Assembly (NCBI GenBank): GCA_021807595.1
Contig: JAKBCS010000041.1
Coordinates: forward strand, 1 to 36,458
Length of the DNA: 36,458 nucleotides
Direction: 5' to 3'
Origin: Planctomycetota bacterium
GTDB lineage: Bacteria; Planctomycetota; Planctomycetia; Gemmatales; Gemmataceae
The number at the start of each line of letters is the position of its first letter. Positions within the stretch are counted from its first letter, which is position 1. Positions 2,431 through 36,118 of the stretch are shown here, piece by piece. The position numbers and the translations under genes are program-made. The notes under the pieces are model-generated. The model saw nothing but the letters and a program-made list of their open reading frames with translations, ran no database searches and was not told the origin of the DNA.

Positions 2431-2485
2431 CCGCGACGCGCAGCGGAGCGCGAAGCCCGCGCTCCGCTGCGCGTCGCGGCTAACC
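2425..2485. terminator. Perfect 28-bp-arm palindrome between convergent genes
   Basis: Arms 2425-2452 and 2458-2485 are exactly complementary over 28 bases, with a 5-base loop (AAGCC). Each outer end reads GGTTAG, so the plus-strand hydrolase (TAG at 2428-2430) and the minus-strand synthetase/acetyltransferase (TAG at 2480-2482) both end in Gly-stop codons encoded by the hairpin. No T-run follows, so it is a bidirectional structural terminator or mRNA-end protector rather than a classical intrinsic terminator. A near-copy lies at 19281-19337 and a relative at 16446-16508. Confidence 0.8.
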
Positions 2486-5161
2486 TCTTATTTCCAACGT
2501 CACGCGGACTACTTGCTCCTCGACGACGATTGGCGGCGAGAAGCCAAGCGATTGCATCAAATGCAGCATCGGTGCGTTCTCGGCCAATACCTGACCGACG
2601 AGGCGTTTGACGCCACGTTCGCGGGCGATGTCGATGAGCCGCTGCATGAGATGTCGTCCCAATCCCTGCCTTTGGTACGCATCGCTCACCACTAAGGCGA
2701 ACTCCGCCGAACCCGTTTCGGGATGCAGATAATAGCGCGATACGCCTAACAACCGTGGTTCGCCGTCTTCATTCATCACGGCCGTCAGCGCCATCTCGCG
2801 GTCGTAATCGAGATGACAGAGGCGTATGAGGCTGTCGCGCGACAGGGTTTTAACCATGCTGAAGAAGCGCATGCGGATGGTGTGTTCGGAATGGGCGGCG
2901 TGCAGGGCGATGATGAGCGGCTCGTCTTCGGGGCGGATGGGGCGGACGATTGCCTCGCGGCCATCGCGCAATCGGAACTTGCCAACGTACTGATTCGGAT
3001 ACGGCGGAATGGCCAGCTTCGGACACTCCTCCGGCGCTCGATCGGCGGCACATAGCAGCACGCGCGCATCTAGGGCAACGACGCGCTCCGGTGCCGCCAG
3101 TACCGGGTTGAGATCGACTTCTTGAATCTCCGGGAAATCCACGAGCAATTGACTGAAACGAGACAGCAGCGTCTCCAGCGCTTCGAGATCGACCGCTTTC
3201 TGACCGCGCACACCTCGGAGCGCCTCGTAAATCTTAGTACGCTCCATCAGTCTCCGGGCCAACATGCGATTGAGCGGCGGCAAACCGAGAGCGCGATCCT
3301 TAAACACTTCCACGAGAACCCCACCGCATCCGAACAGAATCACCGGGCCGAACTGGCGATCGAGCGAACTGCCGACAATCAACTCGTAGCCACGCTCGCG
3401 GACCATCGGTTGCACCGACACGCCCTCAAAGGCTTCCGGTTTGCCGAGGCGTTTGACGTTGTTGTCAATCGTGGCATAGGCGAGGCGAACGGCGCGGTCG
3501 TCGGCGAGATTCAGTTGAACGCCGCCCACATCGCTCTTGTGGGTGATCGTCGTGGACAGCAGTTTCAGGACGACGGGATAGCCTACTTTCGCGGCGACGG
3601 CGACGGCTTCGTCGGCGTTGTGACAAGCGATTGTCGGTACGACGGGCACACCGTAGGCGGCCAACACTTCTTTGGCTTCCACCTCGGTGAGCAGAGTCCG
3701 ACCGGCGGCGCGGACCTGGCCGAAGATCTGCCGCACGCGCGGCACATTCACCGCACTATTCTCCGGCAGAGCGGGCGGCGTTTCGTAGAGCAAGTCTTGA
3801 TTGCGACGATATTGGACCATGTGCAGAAAGGCGCGGATGGCCGACTCCGGCGCGTCGAACGTGGGAATACCGGCCTCGTTCAGCAATTCGATGCCTTTGC
3901 GGACGGCGACGCCTCCCATCCAGCAGGCCAAAATCGGCTTACTCGGCCGATGGGCGAACGAGAGAATTTGTCGCGCCGTCTCGGTCGGATCGCTCATGGC
4001 TTGCGGCGTCAGCAAAACGAGGATGCCCTGCGCGTTGGCATCCTTGGCACAGACTTCGACGGCCAACCGATAGCGTTCCGGCGTGGCATCGCCGAGGATG
4101 TCGATCGGATTGGAATGGCTCCAGAAGGGCGGTAGAGCGGCATTTAGCGCGGCCAATGTTTCGGAAGAGAGCGGCGCGAGTTGGCCGCCGTCGATCATCA
4201 GGGCGTCGGCGGACATGACGCCGGGACCGCCGGCATTGGTGACGATGGCCAAACTGGGTCCGCCCGGCGGCGGTTGCATCGCCAAGATCTCGGACATGGC
4301 GAACAAGTCGGGGATCGTGGTGACACGCAAGACGCCGGCGCGGCGGAATGCGGCTTCAAAAACGGCGTCGGCACCCGCCAAGGCTCCCGTGTGCGAGGCC
4401 GCGGCGCGCGCCCCCGCTTCGTGCCGACCCGATTTGACGACGATGATTGGCTTGGTTCGGCTGACGCTGCGGGCGGCGCTGAGAAACTTGCGCACATCGC
4501 CGATCGACTCCATGTACAACACGATGCTCTTCGTGGCCGGATCGTCGCCGAAATAGTCGATCAGGTCGGCGAAATCAACATCGAGCATCGAGCCGACGCT
4601 GACAAAACTACTGAAACCGACGTGGGCCTGCCGCGCCCAATCGAGAATGGCGGTGCAAATCGCACCGCTTTGACTGAGCAGAGCGACGTTGCCCGGCGCG
4701 GCCATCGACGCGGCAAAGCTGGCGTTGAGATTGCTGGGCGGATGAATGATCCCCAGACAATTCGGACCCACAATGCGTATTTTGCCGCGTGCCACGGAGC
4801 GAATCTCGGCTTCGAGCTTGCGTCCGTCCGCCCCCAACTCGGCGAAACCGGCCGAGATGATAATGGCATTGGAGACGCCGCGTTCGACGCAGTCGCTCAC
4901 GAGTTTGGGCACGCTCGCCGCCGGCGTGGCGATCACGGCCAACTCGACCTTCTCCGGCACGGCGGCGAGATTGGGATAGCAAAAGACGCCCTGAACCGAA
5001 CGTCGCTTGGGATTGATGGGATAGACGACGCCGCCGAAAGGATTCTCCAGCAGGTTGCGCATCAGGATGTTCCCGACGCTGCCCGGCGAGGCGCTGGCTC
5101 CAAAGACGGCGACCGATTGGGGGCGAAAGAACGATTCGAGAGAAGAACGCGATACAGACAT
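2480..5161 (-). CDS. ADP-forming acyl-CoA synthetase fused to GNAT acetyltransferase (PatZ/YfiQ-like)
   Basis: An 893-aa fusion with the layout and length of bacterial Pat/PatZ lysine acetyltransferases. In order: CoA-binding Rossmann domain (about 10-130, SVAVFGASASPGSVGN), succinyl-CoA-ligase-like domain with SQSGA and the SHTGALAGADA loop carrying His257 (the phosphohistidine position of ADP-forming synthetases), ATP-grasp domain (about 480-710), and a C-terminal GNAT domain (about 735-893) with the acetyl-CoA loop YQRQGLGRHLM. Pat proteins acetylate lysines, classically of acetyl-CoA synthetase, to match carbon use to energy state. The start at 5161 is chosen because AAGGA lies six bases before it; in-frame starts at 5167 and 5182 are possible. 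It is last in the minus-strand signalling block, 91 bases after the NtrC-type gene, which suggests control by that system. True synthetase activity is also possible because His257 is kept. Confidence 0.88.
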   Translation of the reverse strand: MSVSRSSLESFFRPQSVAVFGASASPGSVGNILMRNLLENPFGGVVYPINPKRRSVQGVFCYPNLAAVPEKVELAVIATPAASVPKLVSDCVERGVSNAIIISAGFAELGADGRKLEAEIRSVARGKIRIVGPNCLGIIHPPSNLNASFAASMAAPGNVALLSQSGAICTAILDWARQAHVGFSSFVSVGSMLDVDFADLIDYFGDDPATKSIVLYMESIGDVRKFLSAARSVSRTKPIIVVKSGRHEAGARAAASHTGALAGADAVFEAAFRRAGVLRVTTIPDLFAMSEILAMQPPPGGPSLAIVTNAGGPGVMSADALMIDGGQLAPLSSETLAALNAALPPFWSHSNPIDILGDATPERYRLAVEVCAKDANAQGILVLLTPQAMSDPTETARQILSFAHRPSKPILACWMGGVAVRKGIELLNEAGIPTFDAPESAIRAFLHMVQYRRNQDLLYETPPALPENSAVNVPRVRQIFGQVRAAGRTLLTEVEAKEVLAAYGVPVVPTIACHNADEAVAVAAKVGYPVVLKLLSTTITHKSDVGGVQLNLADDRAVRLAYATIDNNVKRLGKPEAFEGVSVQPMVRERGYELIVGSSLDRQFGPVILFGCGGVLVEVFKDRALGLPPLNRMLARRLMERTKIYEALRGVRGQKAVDLEALETLLSRFSQLLVDFPEIQEVDLNPVLAAPERVVALDARVLLCAADRAPEECPKLAIPPYPNQYVGKFRLRDGREAIVRPIRPEDEPLIIALHAAHSEHTIRMRFFSMVKTLSRDSLIRLCHLDYDREMALTAVMNEDGEPRLLGVSRYYLHPETGSAEFALVVSDAYQRQGLGRHLMQRLIDIARERGVKRLVGQVLAENAPMLHLMQSLGFSPPIVVEEQVVRVTLEIRG

Positions 5162-5252
5162 ATTCATTCCTTGAACGAGCATCTCACGAGAGGTTCGGTC
5201 GACCGAGAGACAGACCTTACGATAGTCCTCGGCCCGTCTCGCCCTCGAGCTT

Positions 5253-7467: not shown

Positions 7468-8058
7468 TTAGGGATTGGACATTTCTTTCGCCGTGGCAAT
7501 CGCCAGACGCGCCACTTCGATCAGTTTGAGATTCTTGGCGCTGGCGGTCTTTTGAAGGCGGCGAAACGCTTCCGGCTCGTTCAGGCTCAACTCGCGCATC
7601 AGGATGCCCTTGGCGCGCTCGATCAGTTTGCGATCTTCCAAGGCTTGGCGCATGTCCGAGGTTTCGCGGCGCAGCGCCTCGAACTGCTCGAATCGGCGCA
7701 TGGCCAAGCCGATGGCCGGCTCCAAATCCGCCTGTTTGATCGGCTTGACGAGATAACTCATGATGTGGTCCGCCTCAGCGCGCTCGATCAGTCTGGCATC
7801 GCTGTAGGCCGACACGAGAATCACCGGAATCGGCATCTCTTCGTAAATCTTGACGGCGGCGTCGATGCCATCGAGATCCGGCATCTTAATATCGGTAATG
7901 ACCAGATTGGGACGGTGTTCGCGGCAGAGTGCGATCAATTCCAATCCACTGGCTGCGGCTGCGACGACGCGATGCCCCAAACGAGGGAGGATTTTACGGT
8001 AATAATCGCGCACGTCCGGCTCGTCGTCGGCCACGACAATGCGTAAGGCTTGCGTCAT
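7468..8058 (-). CDS. ANTAR-domain response regulator (antiterminator)
   Basis: A 196-aa two-domain regulator. The receiver domain (5-120) has acidic pocket DDE at 11-13, phospho-acceptor Asp56 in ITDIKMPDLDG and Lys107 in YLVKPI. A linking helix leads to an ANTAR domain (about 135-190) with the signature ERAKGILMRELSLNEPEAF and a terminal helical segment. ANTAR proteins dimerise when phosphorylated and bind paired RNA hairpins to prevent transcription termination, as in NasR and EutV. The ATG overlaps the stop of the upstream kinase gene by four bases (ATGA), so the kinase at 8055-9554 is the obvious partner. The RNA target is unknown; leaders in the same block are candidates because several contain hairpins. 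Confidence 0.93.
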   Translation of the reverse strand: MTQALRIVVADDEPDVRDYYRKILPRLGHRVVAAAASGLELIALCREHRPNLVITDIKMPDLDGIDAAVKIYEEMPIPVILVSAYSDARLIERAEADHIMSYLVKPIKQADLEPAIGLAMRRFEQFEALRRETSDMRQALEDRKLIERAKGILMRELSLNEPEAFRRLQKTASAKNLKLIEVARLAIATAKEMSNP

Positions 8059-10375: not shown

Positions 10376-11620
10376 TCACGGGCCGTCACTCCGAATGAGG
10401 GAAGAGGTCGGCGGAGGGGAATCCGTTTGCAAATACACGGTGAACGTGCTGCCCTTCTCCCATTCGCTGGCCGCGCGTAAACTGCCTCCGTTCTTCTCCA
10501 GAATGGCTCGCGCGATGGACAAACCTAAACCCAACCCTCGCGCCTTGGTCGAATACAAAGGCTCCATGATGCGATGGAGTTGTTCCTTTGGAATTCCGAC
10601 TCCGGTGTCCTCGACCTTCGTTTCGAGAACCCCGTTCGTTTCGCGGGCCGCGATCGTCAGTCGCCCCCCTTGGGGCATCGCATCGCGCGCATTGCGCAGG
10701 AGATTGGCGAAGACGATACGAATTTGCTCGCCGTCGCCCAGCGCTGGAGGTATCGATGGCGGGAATTCGAGAATTAACTCGACGGTATCGGGAACCGGAT
10801 TGGCGTCGAGGGCTTCGCGGACACATTCTTCCAAAGAGAACGGCGTTCGATTGGGTGCCGGCAGCTTGGCGAAATTCGACAGCGCCGTGATGACGCCATC
10901 GGCCAAGACGACGTGCTTTTCGATGCGATGCAGATGTTCGATTTGTTTCTCCACCGTCGGCTTACTCGCGTTCAGCAGGTAGTACACCGAGGTCTTGACG
11001 ACGTTGAGCGGGTTGCGCAACTCGTGAGCCACGCCCCCGGCCACCTGACCGATCGTCGCCATGCGTTCGCTGCGTTGTAGGCGCAAAGCGTACTCTTCCT
11101 GATAGGCGTCTTCGATAATGGCCAAATCCAGATCGAGCAGTTTATTGAGCGAACGCATCGTCGTTTGTAACTCTTTGCCGTCGCCGCGCCAATGCTCGTG
11201 CAGGCAACTCATCAATCCCAGGCGCAGGCGCGACAGAGCAACATTGGTATAGACCTGATCGAGTCCGATCTCGACGTGCCTCCAGCCGACTTGCCAACGG
11301 CGGGAGACATAGTTTTGGTCGTAGCGGCCGCCCAACAACTCGCGCAGCCACATTACCAGCGTGCCCTTGAGGCGCTCGATTTGTGCCTGCCCGCCGGTGA
11401 TGACCTTAAGGGCGTTGGGATGCCGTTGGATCTCGTCGTAGAAATCCTCCACCAGTGTCGAGAGATGAGGCGCAAGCAGACTCGAAGTCGCCGCGACGCT
11501 GCAAGCGTCCTCGCCGGTCCATCCCACCCATGCCTGCAATTCCTGATAGCGGCGATAAACATCGTCGATATTCACGACTGTTCGGTTCCCATGCCCTTCG
11601 TGATCCCCAACCGAAAGCAT
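10376..11620 (-). CDS. Globin-coupled sensor histidine kinase
   Basis: A 414-aa soluble kinase with an N-terminal protoglobin-type sensor (about 18-175). The key sign is RRWQVGWRHVEIGLDQVY (108-124), which matches the globin-coupled-sensor F-helix, making His115 the likely proximal haem ligand. The helix around RLKGTLVMWLRELLGG (83-98) is also typical. The sensor is followed by a HisKA domain with His199 in GGVAHELRNPLNVV and an ATPase domain (about 300-405) with NLLRNARDAMPQGG, VEDTGVGIP and GLGLGLSIARAI. Such proteins bind O2, NO or CO through haem and change kinase activity. This is the first gene of the minus-strand signalling block and probably sets its input. The ATG at 11620 lacks a strong ribosome site, so a slightly later start (for example GTG at residue 16) is possible. 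Haem binding itself is inferred. Confidence 0.9.
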   Translation of the reverse strand: MLSVGDHEGHGNRTVVNIDDVYRRYQELQAWVGWTGEDACSVAATSSLLAPHLSTLVEDFYDEIQRHPNALKVITGGQAQIERLKGTLVMWLRELLGGRYDQNYVSRRWQVGWRHVEIGLDQVYTNVALSRLRLGLMSCLHEHWRGDGKELQTTMRSLNKLLDLDLAIIEDAYQEEYALRLQRSERMATIGQVAGGVAHELRNPLNVVKTSVYYLLNASKPTVEKQIEHLHRIEKHVVLADGVITALSNFAKLPAPNRTPFSLEECVREALDANPVPDTVELILEFPPSIPPALGDGEQIRIVFANLLRNARDAMPQGGRLTIAARETNGVLETKVEDTGVGIPKEQLHRIMEPLYSTKARGLGLGLSIARAILEKNGGSLRAASEWEKGSTFTVYLQTDSPPPTSSLIRSDGP

Positions 11621-31135: not shown

Positions 31136-32479
31136 TCAGGGGGAGGGAGGTCGAGGCGAGGGCGCAGATGCCTTCCCCTTCCATTCGGCCGGCAGGTTCG
31201 CTTTCGTCTCGCGCAGTATTTCCAAGATGGCCCGGCGATCTTCCGCGGAAAGATGCGCGAACTTCTTGCTCGTGTCCTTGCCGCTCAACACTTCCCATAA
31301 GCGATGCAAGAGGTAATCCTTCACTGGCGACGGCAAAGCGTCGAATTGCTCGGAATAAATGGCATAGCTGCACGGATAGACGAACAAGCGCTTTTTCAAA
31401 TCGAATTGCCGCAACGAACGTCCCTTGCCATCGCACGGCCCGACTTTGGCGAACGCCTCGGCGAAACCCGATACCCCTTTTATCGGATCGGTCAATTGCG
31501 CTTCTTCGCAAAACAGCATGTACTCGACGACCGGATCGCCGGCGTTCTGGATGCGGCTGAGGGTACTCTCGGAACGATACCCCGCCGTTCGGCTCAGGGC
31601 TTTGTTGAACTCGATCTCGTCGCGCAGCGCGATGCGCGTTGAGAAGTTGGCGCGGGTGAGACGATTTTGCATCTCGGTTTGGTGTTCCATCACCATCAGG
31701 GCCACGATGTCGCTGTGCGGGGTCAGATACGGCTCGGTTCGGAAATAGCGATCCAGATGGGCGACATTGAGGTTCTCCGAATTGTCGATGTCGTCTGGGC
31801 GCGGATTGCCGCGTGCGATCAGATTGCCGAGGTGCATCTGTTTGCCGCTGTCGCCGCTGACGTACCATCCGCCCCAACGCTGCCGCAGCGGGCTGGAGTG
31901 GTCGATGCGATAAGTGCCCGAAGCCAAAAGCGGCATCCCCCCGTTGTCCGCGAACACCGAACGCACCAGGTGCCCCGGATAGCCCCGATTGAACGAGGAA
32001 GCGTGGCAGATCAAACAGTTGTCCGTTTGCCGGAGAAGCCGCGGGCGGTCGCTCTTCTTCTGACTCAGCGAGTAAAAAACCGCCCCGAGTTGCGGATCGA
32101 CGGCGGTAACTTCCAACACATCGCCCTTTTGGCAAAAGCCGACGTAGGCATCGTCGGCAAAGTATATGGCGCGCGGCGTGCGCGGATTGATGCGCTGGCG
32201 CTGCAAACTCGTTTTCGAGAACACCAACATTTGCGACGATTGCGGCACCTTCAACTCGCGCAGCAGCGAACGTAGATAGCCGCTCCCCTCTTCGTGGTTC
32301 AGTTTCGTTCGCCCGTCTTTGAGCCGTTCTTGCAATCGTTCGACGACATTGTTCGCCTGGGAAGTGCCGTACTCGATCGGCGGTCGGTCGAGATCCACGG
32401 CGCGGACGGAGGCAGGAAACAGAGTTAGCAGCAGGGCCATCGCATAGCGCCAGGATAAGGGGAGGCAACGTACTCGCAC
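31136..32479 (-). CDS. Secreted protein with a single CXXCH haem motif
   Basis: A 447-aa protein with a signal peptide (about 1-27, SWRYAMALLLTLFPASVRAV) and one haem c attachment site CLICH in RQTDNCLICHASSFNRGYPG. The surrounding region is not a recognisable small cytochrome c fold, and a distal Met cannot be assigned with confidence (GGMPLL and KQMHLG are candidates). The rest has Trp/Tyr-rich stretches such as RWGGWYVSGDSGKQMHLG and no other known domain. It resembles uncharacterised planctomycete proteins. It may transfer electrons in the periplasm. The start is GTG with AAGGAG eight bases upstream. It follows the ABC permease gene by 122 bases in the same direction. Confidence 0.8.
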   Translation of the reverse strand: MRVRCLPLSWRYAMALLLTLFPASVRAVDLDRPPIEYGTSQANNVVERLQERLKDGRTKLNHEEGSGYLRSLLRELKVPQSSQMLVFSKTSLQRQRINPRTPRAIYFADDAYVGFCQKGDVLEVTAVDPQLGAVFYSLSQKKSDRPRLLRQTDNCLICHASSFNRGYPGHLVRSVFADNGGMPLLASGTYRIDHSSPLRQRWGGWYVSGDSGKQMHLGNLIARGNPRPDDIDNSENLNVAHLDRYFRTEPYLTPHSDIVALMVMEHQTEMQNRLTRANFSTRIALRDEIEFNKALSRTAGYRSESTLSRIQNAGDPVVEYMLFCEEAQLTDPIKGVSGFAEAFAKVGPCDGKGRSLRQFDLKKRLFVYPCSYAIYSEQFDALPSPVKDYLLHRLWEVLSGKDTSKKFAHLSAEDRRAILEILRETKANLPAEWKGKASAPSPRPPSP

Positions 32480-32601
32480 GATCGAACTCCTTGACCCAAA
32501 GCCCGCCAGGAGGGAACAGCGGCGGATACAGAGGACATATGGATAAGTTTATCCAGAATGCAGGAGAAGTCAACTCCCCCCGTCAAAAAATGTCGATCTC
32601 C

Positions 32602-33561
32602 TCACCCCATTCCCCGCGCGCGCAGCCAGGGAGACAGGGCCAGGGATGCGACAAAGGCGCAGACGTTCAACAAGACAATTGTGCCGGGGAGGCCGAGTTG
32701 GTTTTTGGTACCGATGCCGATTTCCCAACTCACCCATTGGCCGACGAGACACCAAGTTAGGCTGAACGCGACGGTGCGCCAGAACAATTGGCGCATGTTG
32801 CGACTGAGGTTGATCGCCGTCGCCGCCGGGATGATGAGCAAGGCGTTGATGAGCAGCGCGCCGACGAAGCGCAAACACAGATTCACGGTCAGCGCCAAGA
32901 GGATGATGAAGAGATATTGCGCCGTTTGTACCGGCACGCGGCGCGACAGCGCCAGGCTCTGATTGAAGCTGGCCAGCAACAAATGATTGTAGATACCGGC
33001 GAGGAGCAGGAGCGCGATCGCAAGCAGCACGGCGAGGACGAGGATTTGCCCGCTGGACACGCGCAGGGGATCGCCGAAGAGGAAGTCTTCCAGGTTGAAG
33101 AGCGCGCGATTGCGCAGGAGATCGCGCAGGGCGGCGGCCAGACCGACCGCGCCGGCGAAGAAGACGCCGATGACCGTGTCGCTGCTCAGTCCGGTGCGCG
33201 TGCGTACCCAGACGATGCCGCAACCGGCCACGATGCCGAACACGGCCATGACCACTGTAACCCAATCCCAGAAGAAATCGTGTCCACCAGGCGAACCGAA
33301 CAGCAAAAAGAGAAAAAAGCCGATGCTGATGCCGGCAAAGGAGCAGTGCGCAAGCGCGTCGCTGAAGAAGGCCATGCGGCTTCCCACCACCAGCGAGCCG
33401 AGGGCGGCGCAGCACAAGCCGACCAGAACGGTGGCCAGCAACGAACGAATGTTGAAATCCCACGCGAAAAAGCTGTCCTGCGGAGCCAGACGGGTGCAAA
33501 AGTCGATGCCGCGATCGAGCCATTCAGAAGGGAACGAAGCGAACAGCAGCGTGCCAAACAT
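32602..33561 (-). CDS. ABC-3 family metal transporter permease (ZnuB/MntB-like)
   Basis: A 319-aa, very hydrophobic protein with about eight to nine predicted membrane helices. Family motifs are LGSLVVGSRMAFFSDALAHC, SFAGISIGFF and, later, the conserved FVGALLINALLIIPAATA. These are typical of the ZnuB/MntB/SitD-type permeases for zinc, manganese or iron import. The matching ATPase and binding-protein genes, usually adjacent, are absent here, so the metal cannot be guessed. The ATG at 33561 is preferred, with AAGGGG eight bases upstream; a TTG at 33597 is also open. A hydrophilic insert of about 25 residues (DRGIDFCTRLAPQDSFFAWD) precedes the first core helix. Confidence 0.9.
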   Translation of the reverse strand: MFGTLLFASFPSEWLDRGIDFCTRLAPQDSFFAWDFNIRSLLATVLVGLCCAALGSLVVGSRMAFFSDALAHCSFAGISIGFFLFLLFGSPGGHDFFWDWVTVVMAVFGIVAGCGIVWVRTRTGLSSDTVIGVFFAGAVGLAAALRDLLRNRALFNLEDFLFGDPLRVSSGQILVLAVLLAIALLLLAGIYNHLLLASFNQSLALSRRVPVQTAQYLFIILLALTVNLCLRFVGALLINALLIIPAATAINLSRNMRQLFWRTVAFSLTWCLVGQWVSWEIGIGTKNQLGLPGTIVLLNVCAFVASLALSPWLRARGMG

Positions 33562-33681
33562 GAAGGCGGCCCCTTGGGATTGCCGAATCGTCGGCAAGAG
33601 CTTCTCACTCCGTCATCCTATCGCAACGGGGTAAGAGCGTCTTTACGACGCGCATTTCTCGGCAATCCCCGCCCTTCGCAA

Positions 33682-34137
33682 CTAGATCGAAAACTCGTCC
33701 CTCTCGACGACAAAACAGGGCGAGAGTTCCAGCGGAGCTTGGACCGACGGAGCGCACGACGGCAACAGTTCGCGGAGTTGCTCGTCGAGCCGTTTCACCT
33801 CGGTTCCGAGACGGTGAAGCATGGCGTGGGAATCGGCGTCTGCCTCCTCAAGTTGTTCCCGGAGTAAATCGAGACTCAATGCCACCGTCTGCAGACGATT
33901 GTTCAGCACGCGGCGGATTCGCTTCAGGCGCGTTGCCGCGTCGCTTTCCCGCAGTGCAAATGCGTCGTTGACCGAGGCATTGCCGCGGAGCAACACTTCT
34001 TCGCGTAAAATCGTCACCGAAGCGGGCGCGTCGATGCCGAGACGAACGCCGTTGGGCTTGATGCCGACTACTTCAATCGTCACCGGCACGGTCGGCAACA
34101 CGATGCGTTCGTTGAGTTGACGGGCCAAGACTAACAT
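33682..34137 (-). CDS. csrA: CsrA-family regulator with long C-terminal helical extension
   Basis: Residues 1-55 are a CsrA domain (MLVLARQLNERIVLPTVPV, GVRLGIDAPASVTILREEVL), with Arg45 at the position of the RNA-contacting Arg44. CsrA normally ends near residue 60-75; here about 90 more residues follow. A helical part (about 66-125) contains RRVLNNRLQTVALSLDLLRE and a second helix LHRLGTEVKRLDEQLREL. It recalls the two-helix dimerisation hairpin of histidine kinases but without the phospho-His. A non-helical tail ends it. The start has AAGGAGGT eight bases upstream. CsrA binds GGA motifs in mRNA leaders to control translation; the extension may add a partner or oligomer surface. Confidence 0.88.
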   Translation of the reverse strand: MLVLARQLNERIVLPTVPVTIEVVGIKPNGVRLGIDAPASVTILREEVLLRGNASVNDAFALRESDAATRLKRIRRVLNNRLQTVALSLDLLREQLEEADADSHAMLHRLGTEVKRLDEQLRELLPSCAPSVQAPLELSPCFVVERDEFSI

Positions 34138-34677
34138 GTGTAGCTACCTCCTTGAGCCAAAAGCACTTCCTGACGAGAATCTCACACGCGGAGATTCCCT
34201 CCCATGTACAATTCGTGAATGGTTGATTCCCATTTGGCGGGTGTGTCTTGCCGGCGGGATGCTTCCTTGCGCACAAAAAAGAGTGGTAGTAAGTTCAACT
34301 TCGTGTTGAAACGTCCAATAGTAGATATTTATAGGAGCGTCGAGGGCAAAAGACAAGGGACGTAGGCGCGCGTTCACCAATTTTTTGCCGAACGACTCGG
34401 TTTGCATCGAACCCCGAACGACGTTACATTGAGTGAGTGGGTGGGGCTTACAAGGACTGGATCGTTGGAGCGCGATCTTGGCGAAAGTTGCCGAGCATCG
34501 GACGGCCGGCGTCACCGTCGTATGCGATCTCAATCGGATGACGGAACGATGCCACGTCTCTCGCAACGAAGAAGCGACACAGATCTTCTCGTCCGATCGG
34601 GAACGAACCGTCCCGGAAGCGTTGCCGGAATTGCGCCTACCCGTGAGGCGATTCTTCGAGTGATCCGAGGGATAGCG
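34138..34677. other. 540-base non-coding region between csrA and the B12-binding gene
   Basis: No convincing gene is seen on either strand. Around 34250-34345 the base composition is unusually AT-rich for the window, including TAGATATTTATAG, and probably holds promoters for the divergent genes. A perfect 6-bp inverted repeat TTCAAC-TTCGT-GTTGAA (34290-34306) sits in this part and could be an operator. The open frames in the region have amino-acid compositions unlike the neighbours and no recognisable family. Confidence 0.5.
34290..34306. promoter_or_regulatory. Palindromic operator-like site
   Basis: TTCAAC (34290-34295) and GTTGAA (34301-34306) are perfect inverted arms around a 5-base centre, about 155 bases upstream of csrA, next to the AT-rich segment. 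It may bind a dimeric regulator; this is not shown. Confidence 0.35.
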
Positions 34678-35088
34678 ATGACCGATTCCCCCCCCGTTCG
34701 CGTGGTTCTGGCCAAAGTCGGACTCGATGGCCACGACCGCGGCATTAAAGTGGTCGCCCGCGCCCTGCGCGACGCCGGGATGCAGGTGATCTATGCCGGA
34801 CTATGGCAGACGCCGGAAGCGGTGGTCCGAGCTGTGGCCGACGAGGACGCCGACTGGCTCGGATTGAGTCTCCTCAGCGGGGCGCACATGACGTTGGTGC
34901 CGCGCGTGCTGCAATTGCTGCGCGAGGCGGGGTTGGCGCACGTCGGCGTCCTGGTCGGCGGCATCATTCCGGAGGGCGACATTCCGAAATTGCGGCAAAT
35001 GGGCGTGGCGCGCATCTTCGGCCCCGGCACGTCGTTGCCGGAGATCGTGACCTTTCTCCAGGAGCGCAGCGGTGCCGGCCATGCTTGA
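34678..35088 (+). CDS. Cobalamin-binding protein (methylmalonyl-CoA mutase C-terminal type)
   Basis: A 136-aa protein equal to the B12-binding Rossmann domain of methylmalonyl-CoA mutase. The DxHxxG motif is Asp17-Gly-His19-Asp-Arg-Gly22 in [13 protein letters not shown], His19 being the lower axial cobalt ligand. SLLSGAHM and [11 protein letters not shown] supply the later cofactor contacts. As a separate protein it is like the small B12 subunit of two-part acyl-CoA mutases (for example ethylmalonyl- or isobutyryl-type) or a free-standing accessory; no large subunit gene is in this window. It overlaps the MeaB-like gene by 17 bases. The ATG at 34678 is used because the domain begins there, although the frame is open upstream. 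Confidence 0.9.
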
Positions 35089-35992
35089 AACGCTGTTGGA
35101 ACGCTTCCGCCAGGGCGACCGCTTAGCGCTGTCTCGGCTCCTCAGCACGGTGGCGCGCGGCGAACGCGTCGAAGAGATTCTCACCGGTGTCGGCGAACCG
35201 GCCAAACCGGCGCGCGTGGTCGCCTTCACCGGCAGCGGCGGCGTCGGCAAAAGCACCCTGGTCGGCAAGACGATTGAGACGATTCGCCTCCACGATCGCA
35301 GTGTCGCCGTGCTGGCTTGCGATCCGCAAAGTCCGCTGAGCGGCGGCGCGCTCCTCGGCGACCGCTTCCGCATGACGGCTCGACCCGACGACGACGGCGT
35401 CTTTATCCGCAGCCTCGCCGCCGCCGGAGGCCACGGAGCCTTGGCCGAGCATCTGCCCGCGCTCGTTCGCTTGTTGGAAGCGTTCGGCTTCGACGTGGTG
35501 CTGATCGAGACGGTAGGCGCGGGACAGGGCGACACCGTGGTGCGCGAATGGGTCGATGTCCTCGTTCTGCTCTTGCAGCCGGAAACCGGCGACGATTTGC
35601 AATGGGAAAAAGCGGGCCTGCTCGAAGTCGCCGACGCCATCGTCATTCATAAAGCCGATTTGTCCGGCGCGGACCGCGTCGAGGCGCAAGTGTTGGCCAC
35701 GCTCTCGTTGGGAACCGGGCCGGTCGCTCCCGTGTTGCGCGTCAGTTCGCGCACGGGTGCGGGACTGGCCGAGTTGTGGCAAACCATCGCCTCTCTACCC
35801 TTGCGTCGCGGTCGACAAAAGCGTGGGCGCGATTTGCTGCTACTGGCGCAACAGACCTTGACGGCCCGTTTTGCCGCCGCCGAGGCGCATCCCGAATTGC
35901 AACAACTCCTCGCCTCCTGGGAGCGAGGTACCGTAACCTCAACTCAGGCGGCGGCGGCATTATTGCGCCTGCTCCGCGACACCGATCGTTAA
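35072..35992 (+). CDS. meaB: MeaB/ArgK-type GTPase for B12-dependent mutase
   Basis: A 306-aa G3E-family GTPase with the MeaB layout: Walker [10 protein letters not shown] (54-62), the [20 protein letters not shown] segment (82-101), Walker B/switch [12 protein letters not shown] (146-157), and the base-specificity motif HKAD (193-196) where MeaB and relatives normally have NKAD. MeaB protects and reloads methylmalonyl-CoA mutase cofactor. The GTG start at 35072 is chosen because AGGAG is seven bases upstream; ATG at 35081 is the alternative. The 17-base overlap with the B12-binding gene shows translational coupling and supports the shared job. The C-terminal dimerisation arm is present ([20 protein letters not shown]). 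Confidence 0.9.
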
Positions 35993-36118
35993 CCGTACCG
36001 CACCGATACCCTCTCCCTGTCATCTTGCCGAGGAGCGAAGGACATTTGATCGCAAACGTGGATCGTCTTACCTCGGCATGCACGCTTGTCACAATTATCG
36101 ACGAGCGGGGTTGCGTAA

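Follow-up and report, generated by a model that had tools for sequence, protein, structure and literature searches.

A CsrA protein with a DHp-like hairpin lacking the histidine, and its CsrA-hairpin-REC relatives in the Planctomycetota

The window, the whole 36,458-nucleotide stretch of Planctomycetota DNA analyzed here, encodes on its minus strand (33682..34137) a 151-amino-acid CsrA protein with a predicted hairpin that resembles the dimerization hairpin (DHp) of histidine kinases and without a receiver (REC) domain. The protein was assigned to the CsrA family, with a hairpin derived from DHp that has no His. It is a shortened offshoot of a family in the Planctomycetota whose usual architecture is CsrA, a His-bearing DHp-like hairpin and REC, and it is itself neither a response regulator nor a phospho-acceptor. 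The explanation favored for the gene as a whole, at a probability of about 0.55, is that it encodes a phosphorylation-blind companion derived from this CsrA-hairpin-REC family. The relatives, which carry the His and REC and often adjoin kinase genes, suggest that control of mRNA could be linked directly to two-component signaling.

The window gene and its orthologue

The limits of the open reading frame (ORF) are exactly 33682-34137 on the minus strand. It starts with ATG and has a strong Shine-Dalgarno sequence, AAGGAGGT, at -16 to -9 relative to the ATG. Residues 1-50 (33988..34137, minus strand) form the CsrA domain and matched PF02599 in Pfam with an E value of 4.4e-15 (55.8 bits, cut-off 27). 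The NCBIfam csrA models scored the protein at 48.6 bits, below their 73-bit cut-off. When the predicted model was searched with Foldseek, CsrA/RsmA structures ranked first (best E value 2.8e-3). L4, R6, and R45 are all present; L4, R6, and R44 (R45 in this protein) are the RNA-contact residues of CsrA. An extension of approximately 100 residues follows the domain. The preliminary description had read the protein as a normal CsrA domain fused to an extension resembling a kinase hairpin, and both the domain and an extension holding a helical hairpin were confirmed.

AlphaFold, run on the monomer, predicted helices at residues 58-97 and 103-124, with a mean pLDDT of 69 overall and approximately 80 in the hairpin. 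The hairpin was assigned to residues 67-126 (33760..33939, minus strand) from these helices, the pattern of selection, the structural ranking of kinase DHp domains and a family-level hhalign comparison. Residues 78-92 read LNNRLQTVALSLDLL. The linker (residues 51-66; 33940..33987, minus strand) lies between the CsrA domain and the hairpin, and pLDDT was low at residues 48-55. The tail comprises residues 127-151 (33685..33759, minus strand), with a strand predicted at low confidence at 141-145.

An orthologue of equal length and with the same ending was found in G003, a genome of the same genus (L038/L193), and is 87% identical. A query with the extension only against 149 related genomes returned this orthologue first (86% identity over that part), followed by much weaker matches, several of them in ORFs reading CsrA-hairpin-REC. 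Synteny with G003 is kept across 31141-36017 of the window at approximately 93% DNA identity. The gene is present in two of the four genomes of the genus that were searched. In the comparison with the G003 orthologue dN/dS was 0.17 in the CsrA part and 0.18 in the hairpin (residues 67-126; dN 0.031, dS 0.166), these being rough numbers from few sites. On the same rough scale the ratios exceed 1 in the linker (dN 0.306, dS 0.186) and the tail (dN 0.159, dS 0.112). The CsrA part and the hairpin are under purifying selection while the linker and tail drift. Disorder and lack of conservation in homologues, the refuting outcome set by the preliminary description, do not apply to the extension, which is both helical and conserved. 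A chance reading frame was ruled out by the selection pattern and the orthologue. A frameshifted or misassembled REC domain beyond the stop codon was ruled out as the next gene starts approximately 85 nt downstream and the G003 gene is truncated identically.

A metal ABC permease gene lies downstream of the window gene, and B12-binding/MeaB genes are divergent to it. No kinase is encoded nearby, the nearest being approximately 22 kb off. A promoter and terminator scan of 32400-34800 gave results near chance. Elsewhere in the window, an RNA-binding response regulator (7468-8058, minus strand; REC 4.5e-24, ANTAR 5.5e-19) adjoins kinase genes. A soluble histidine kinase (10376-11620, minus strand) has an N-terminal protoglobin domain (4.1e-34), so it is probably a haem-based gas sensor. 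The gene at 2480-5182 (minus strand) encodes a protein similar to acyl-CoA synthetases with a GNAT domain at its C terminus, the layout of Pat-kind protein acetyltransferases.

The genome from which the window comes holds five more CsrA-like places according to the protein search, and seven CsrA matches altogether were found in the family search. The paralogue L002 is 36% identical to the window protein over residues 1-132 and then continues into a receiver domain. The full-length paralogue of this genome, at L194:7336-8118, matched CsrA at 1e-15 and REC at 1.8e-14.

The hairpin and the CsrA-hairpin-REC family

A profile of CsrA plus hairpin, built from seven sequences, had matches at E 1e-15 in 118 of the 397 genomes from the class; in some cases the match covers CsrA alone. 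Of 392 phylum genomes, 14 had a match at E 1e-20, and the listing gives each of these as own or same class. The window protein, itself one of the seven rows, matched the profile over all 115 positions with an E value of 1.9e-40. The profile matched 150 distinct gene entries, of which 116 were kept on the basis of the hairpin motif or a match past profile position 85. The other 34, including L105 with its internal stop, were set aside as ordinary CsrA. L105:4001-4769 is a csrA-hairpin-REC relative from an uncultured Gemmataceae bacterium; its frame stops after 64 residues and the match continues to residue 255, which was read as a frameshift or sequencing error. Named members of the family are from the cultured species Bythopirellula polymerisocia and Rhodopirellula baltica and from uncultured Gemmataceae, and on this basis the window probably belongs to an uncultured planctomycete close to the Gemmataceae. 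R6 and R45 are invariant (116/116). The hairpin His is present in 104/116 proteins, a count that leans high because the hairpin motif was one entry route into the set, while the REC acceptor Asp is present in 108/116 and the REC Lys in 107/116.

The His, together with an Asn four residues later, is invariant in 21 hairpins hand-picked by us from the family. HisKA was the commonest Pfam match to this set of our own choice (11/21), with a best E value of 2.9e-4 and all matches below the curated cut-off. The window protein gave no HisKA match in Pfam at E values up to 1. Using hhalign, the family-hairpin profile aligned to a HisKA profile, made from domains of kinases from the same loci picked by H-box pattern, with a probability of 97.1% (P 5.9e-11). 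Among the controls, the reversed profile gave 0.4%, and none of 30 column shuffles exceeded 2.6%. The signal sits in helix 1, which gave 97.1% alone; with the H-box removed the probability was 2.3%. A search of the hairpin profile against PDB sequences returned nine matches at E values up to 10 (best 0.13), none of them to a kinase. Matches of the extension to PF22905, spectrin, HSCB, and SlyX (E 0.003-0.4) were all below cut-off and were taken as helical noise.

Structural alignment of the Foldseek candidates with VIA-align, again on the monomer model, ranked the WalK DHp highest (Z 8.4, rmsd 3.8, 79 aligned). Further rows included VicK, HK853, and PhoR (Z 7-8) and DesK. Unrelated helical proteins (lipoxygenase, designed bundles) also reached Z 7-8, and Foldseek without VIA-align listed kinases solely at E values above 6. 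By the N-terminal alignment offset, residue 76 of the window protein falls on HK853 260 in both 6rh7 and 6rh0 and on WalK 391, the C-terminal offsets being shifted by one to two residues. The title of 6rh7 (H260A) names His 260 of HK853. For 2c2a, a further HK853 entry, residue 76 maps to 255 by one offset and to 264 by the other. AlphaFold modeled full-length L097 (mean pLDDT 81.2) with helices at 64-96 and 99-125 and with REC predicted confidently. The resemblance of the hairpins to the dimerization hairpin of histidine kinases is real at family level. To that extent the kinase likeness first proposed for the window protein holds; it does not extend to the phospho-acceptor, as Arg replaces the His in this copy.

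This Arg is residue 76 (33910..33912, minus strand) and is shared with the G003 orthologue. The H-box helix is kept (NNRLQ...LDLL) despite the missing His. Pfam Response_reg did not match the window protein, and there is no room for a REC domain before the next gene. In the tail, FVVERDE (142-148) can be aligned to LVVEDDRN, the strand with which REC begins, and is possibly what is left of the lost domain. This alignment is suggestive of a loss of REC by truncation. With R76 in place of the His and no REC, a direct phospho-acceptor role of the window protein is unlikely. Oligomerization or docking through its hairpin is plausible.

Further REC-less forms occur in the family, in G060 (140 amino acids, His kept) and G014 (128 amino acids, His lost). 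Among the REC-less forms L153 has retained the hairpin His. The His is absent from seven of eight proteins without the REC Asp compared to 5/108 with it (Fisher p 1.3e-7, a value which ignores relatedness). On a tree based on few columns, the 12 His losses need five changes and the eight Asp losses need seven. Counting supported branches only, two independent pairs of losses are left, and the co-loss is therefore a lead and not proof. Seven long family proteins are without the His, so not every member needs it.

Leader stem-loops and neighboring genes

A stem-loop, TGGCT(CAAGGAGGT)AGCTA, lies directly before the window gene (34141..34159, minus strand). The loop contains AAGGA, an ANGGA motif, together with the Shine-Dalgarno sequence and is a candidate CsrA site. 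The binding site of CsrA family proteins is an ANGGA motif in a loop that covers the ribosome site. The structure 2jpp, among the Foldseek matches, is of RsmE on the hcnA Shine-Dalgarno. A common pattern, GG-(A/T)ANGGAG-ACC, is found directly before the start codon in many of the family leaders. The 112 distinct leaders were thinned to 96 non-redundant ones, and ANGGA occurred within 30 nt in 82 of these. A stem of at least three pairs closes the motif in 56/82 leaders, compared to a mean of 19.0 and a maximum of 28 in 300 shuffles with ANGGA held fixed. In the comparison sets such stems were found for 20/84 other genes of the loci and 5/23 ordinary csrA genes. Stems of at least four pairs were found in 25 leaders, compared to 9.7 in the shuffles, where the maximum was 19. 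Pairing at (-1,+6), (-2,+7), and (-3,+8) was above column permutation (p at most 0.0005), a permutation that ignores relatedness, and adjacent registers show some pairing excess too. The fold energies of five leaders, including that of the window gene, gave no low z-scores and are individually unexceptional. Judged by sequence, many of the family leaders, that of the window gene among them, resemble a CsrA autoregulation site, and the genes may be autoregulated.

A histidine kinase ORF was present within 400 nt of 58/109 family genes with enough flanking sequence, compared to 1/33 ordinary csrA genes. Of these kinases 27 are upstream and eight downstream on the same strand, 18 are convergent and five divergent. 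Two of the neighboring kinases, read by Pfam, have HisKA, HATPase, and a C-terminal REC. The window gene itself is neither kinase-linked nor Kai-linked.

Four genomes of one genus (G000, G001, G002, and G003) and G011 share a cluster of csrA-hairpin-REC, a small uncharacterized gene, kaiB, kaiC, and kinase-REC. The small gene in L194 (8359-8832) encodes a 157-amino-acid protein between csrA-hairpin-REC and kaiB; it has no Pfam match and is conserved in G000-G003 and weakly in G011. The full-length paralogue in the genome of the window sits upstream of kaiB-kaiC-kinase, the kinase lying at L194:10858-12333, and KaiB and KaiC of this cluster matched Pfam at 7.9e-27 and 8.3e-117, respectively. 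In L093 and L101 kaiB and a kinase follow the family gene, and in L163 the order is kinase-kaiB-kaiC-csrA. In all, a family gene adjoins kaiB and a kinase, in some cases also kaiC, at eight loci, a number which could be higher since the other loci were mostly seen with 1.5-3 kb of flank.

Proposed role and comparison with known systems

For phosphotransfer, RNA binding, dimer mixing, and physiological role we infer the following. The full-length proteins would most likely receive phosphate on REC from a histidine kinase with a nearby gene, either directly or via the hairpin His, and their phosphorylation state would alter how the CsrA dimer binds mRNA. The window protein would be a phosphorylation-blind companion, a dimer that binds ANGGA stem-loops of the same kind and whose two hairpins pack into a DHp-like four-helix bundle. 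It may mix with the full-length paralogue of its own genome. Such a companion could set a constant level of repression or buffer the signal-dependent repression.

The hairpin could be a mere structural coiled coil or linker that stabilizes the CsrA dimer, its DHp likeness being superficial and without a two-component link. Helical hairpins of many proteins match at similar Z, the HisKA similarity vanishes without the H-box, the PDB sequence search gave no kinase, and the window copy has no His. This is nevertheless unlikely in view of the H-box similarity (97.1% compared to at most 2.6% in controls), the His in 104/116 proteins, the REC in most relatives, and the excess of kinase neighbors (58/109 compared to 1/33). 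Conservation of the helix NNRLQ...LDLL although the His is gone, and the presence in the same genome of a full-length paralogue with a kinase, would also suit a pseudo-DHp decoy. Here the hairpin would dock a response regulator or the ATP-binding domain of a kinase and titrate the partner of the paralogue, not acting via RNA. However, the arginines for RNA contact are retained in the CsrA part, which is strongly constrained, and a decoy appears distinctly unlikely.

It is improbable that the window gene is a functionless, decaying remnant of a CsrA-hairpin-REC gene, as its length and ending are identical in two genomes, dN/dS is 0.17-0.18 in both the CsrA part and the hairpin, and the Shine-Dalgarno sequence is strong. 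Decay would account for the loss of REC, with its possible C-terminal vestige, the loss of the His, the drifting linker and tail, and the occurrence of the gene in only two of the four genomes searched.

The phosphorylation-blind companion is the preferred reading. It could form part of a wider scheme, a Planctomycetota phosphorelay that ends on mRNA, passing from kinase to hairpin His to REC, with self-repression through ANGGA and, in some genomes including that of the window, a kinase driven by KaiB-KaiC. This would be a post-transcriptional clock output in which the window protein acts as a His-less, threshold-setting subunit. The scheme is speculative and as a whole doubtful. A single chain that combines RNA binding, a phospho-acceptor hairpin and a receiver would couple signaling directly to translation. 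The His-less window form offers a natural test of which part of the chain matters, and with the Kai-linked copies an RNA-level timer output becomes directly testable.

The window protein resembles CsrA/RsmA/RsmE (PF02599) in its N-terminal 50 residues, in R6 and R45, and in having, at the ribosome site of its own gene, a candidate ANGGA stem-loop. It differs by the approximately 100 added residues with the DHp-like hairpin. In the preliminary description a CsrA that senses a partner or oligomerizes through the extension would be a new form of mRNA-binding control, a claim that has to be narrowed since CsrA as a response-regulator output was already in print in 2007; PMC2222644 lists it as such an output domain, citing an earlier classification. 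Compared with the CsrA-output response regulators, the full-length relatives are alike in joining CsrA and REC and differ in having a His hairpin between the domains and a C-terminal REC, while the window protein is REC-less. No report of the histidine hairpin, its His-less form, the leader stem-loops, or the CsrA-Kai link was found in the open-licence papers searched.

The HisKA/DHp domains (PF00512; WalK, HK853, PhoR) share with the family the HxxRNxL H-box of the relatives, a broadly similar predicted hairpin shape, and the position of residue 76. The hairpin is shorter, has no HATPase domain, and in the window protein has Arg for His. Histidine phosphotransferases of the Spo0B/ChpT kind are stand-alone proteins with a DHp-like hairpin and without a working kinase domain of their own, and can be used as a relay. 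The likeness lies in the hairpin without a working kinase domain; the differences are its fusion to an RNA-binding domain and, in the window copy, the missing His, without which a relay is impossible. In the Gac/Rsm and BarA-UvrY/Csr systems two-component signals reach CsrA indirectly, via small RNAs under a response regulator. The cyanobacterial Kai output pathway is KaiC-SasA-RpaA, with a DNA-binding output. The full-length paralogue likewise adjoins kaiB, kaiC, and a histidine kinase, but its putative output domain is RNA-binding and not DNA-binding.
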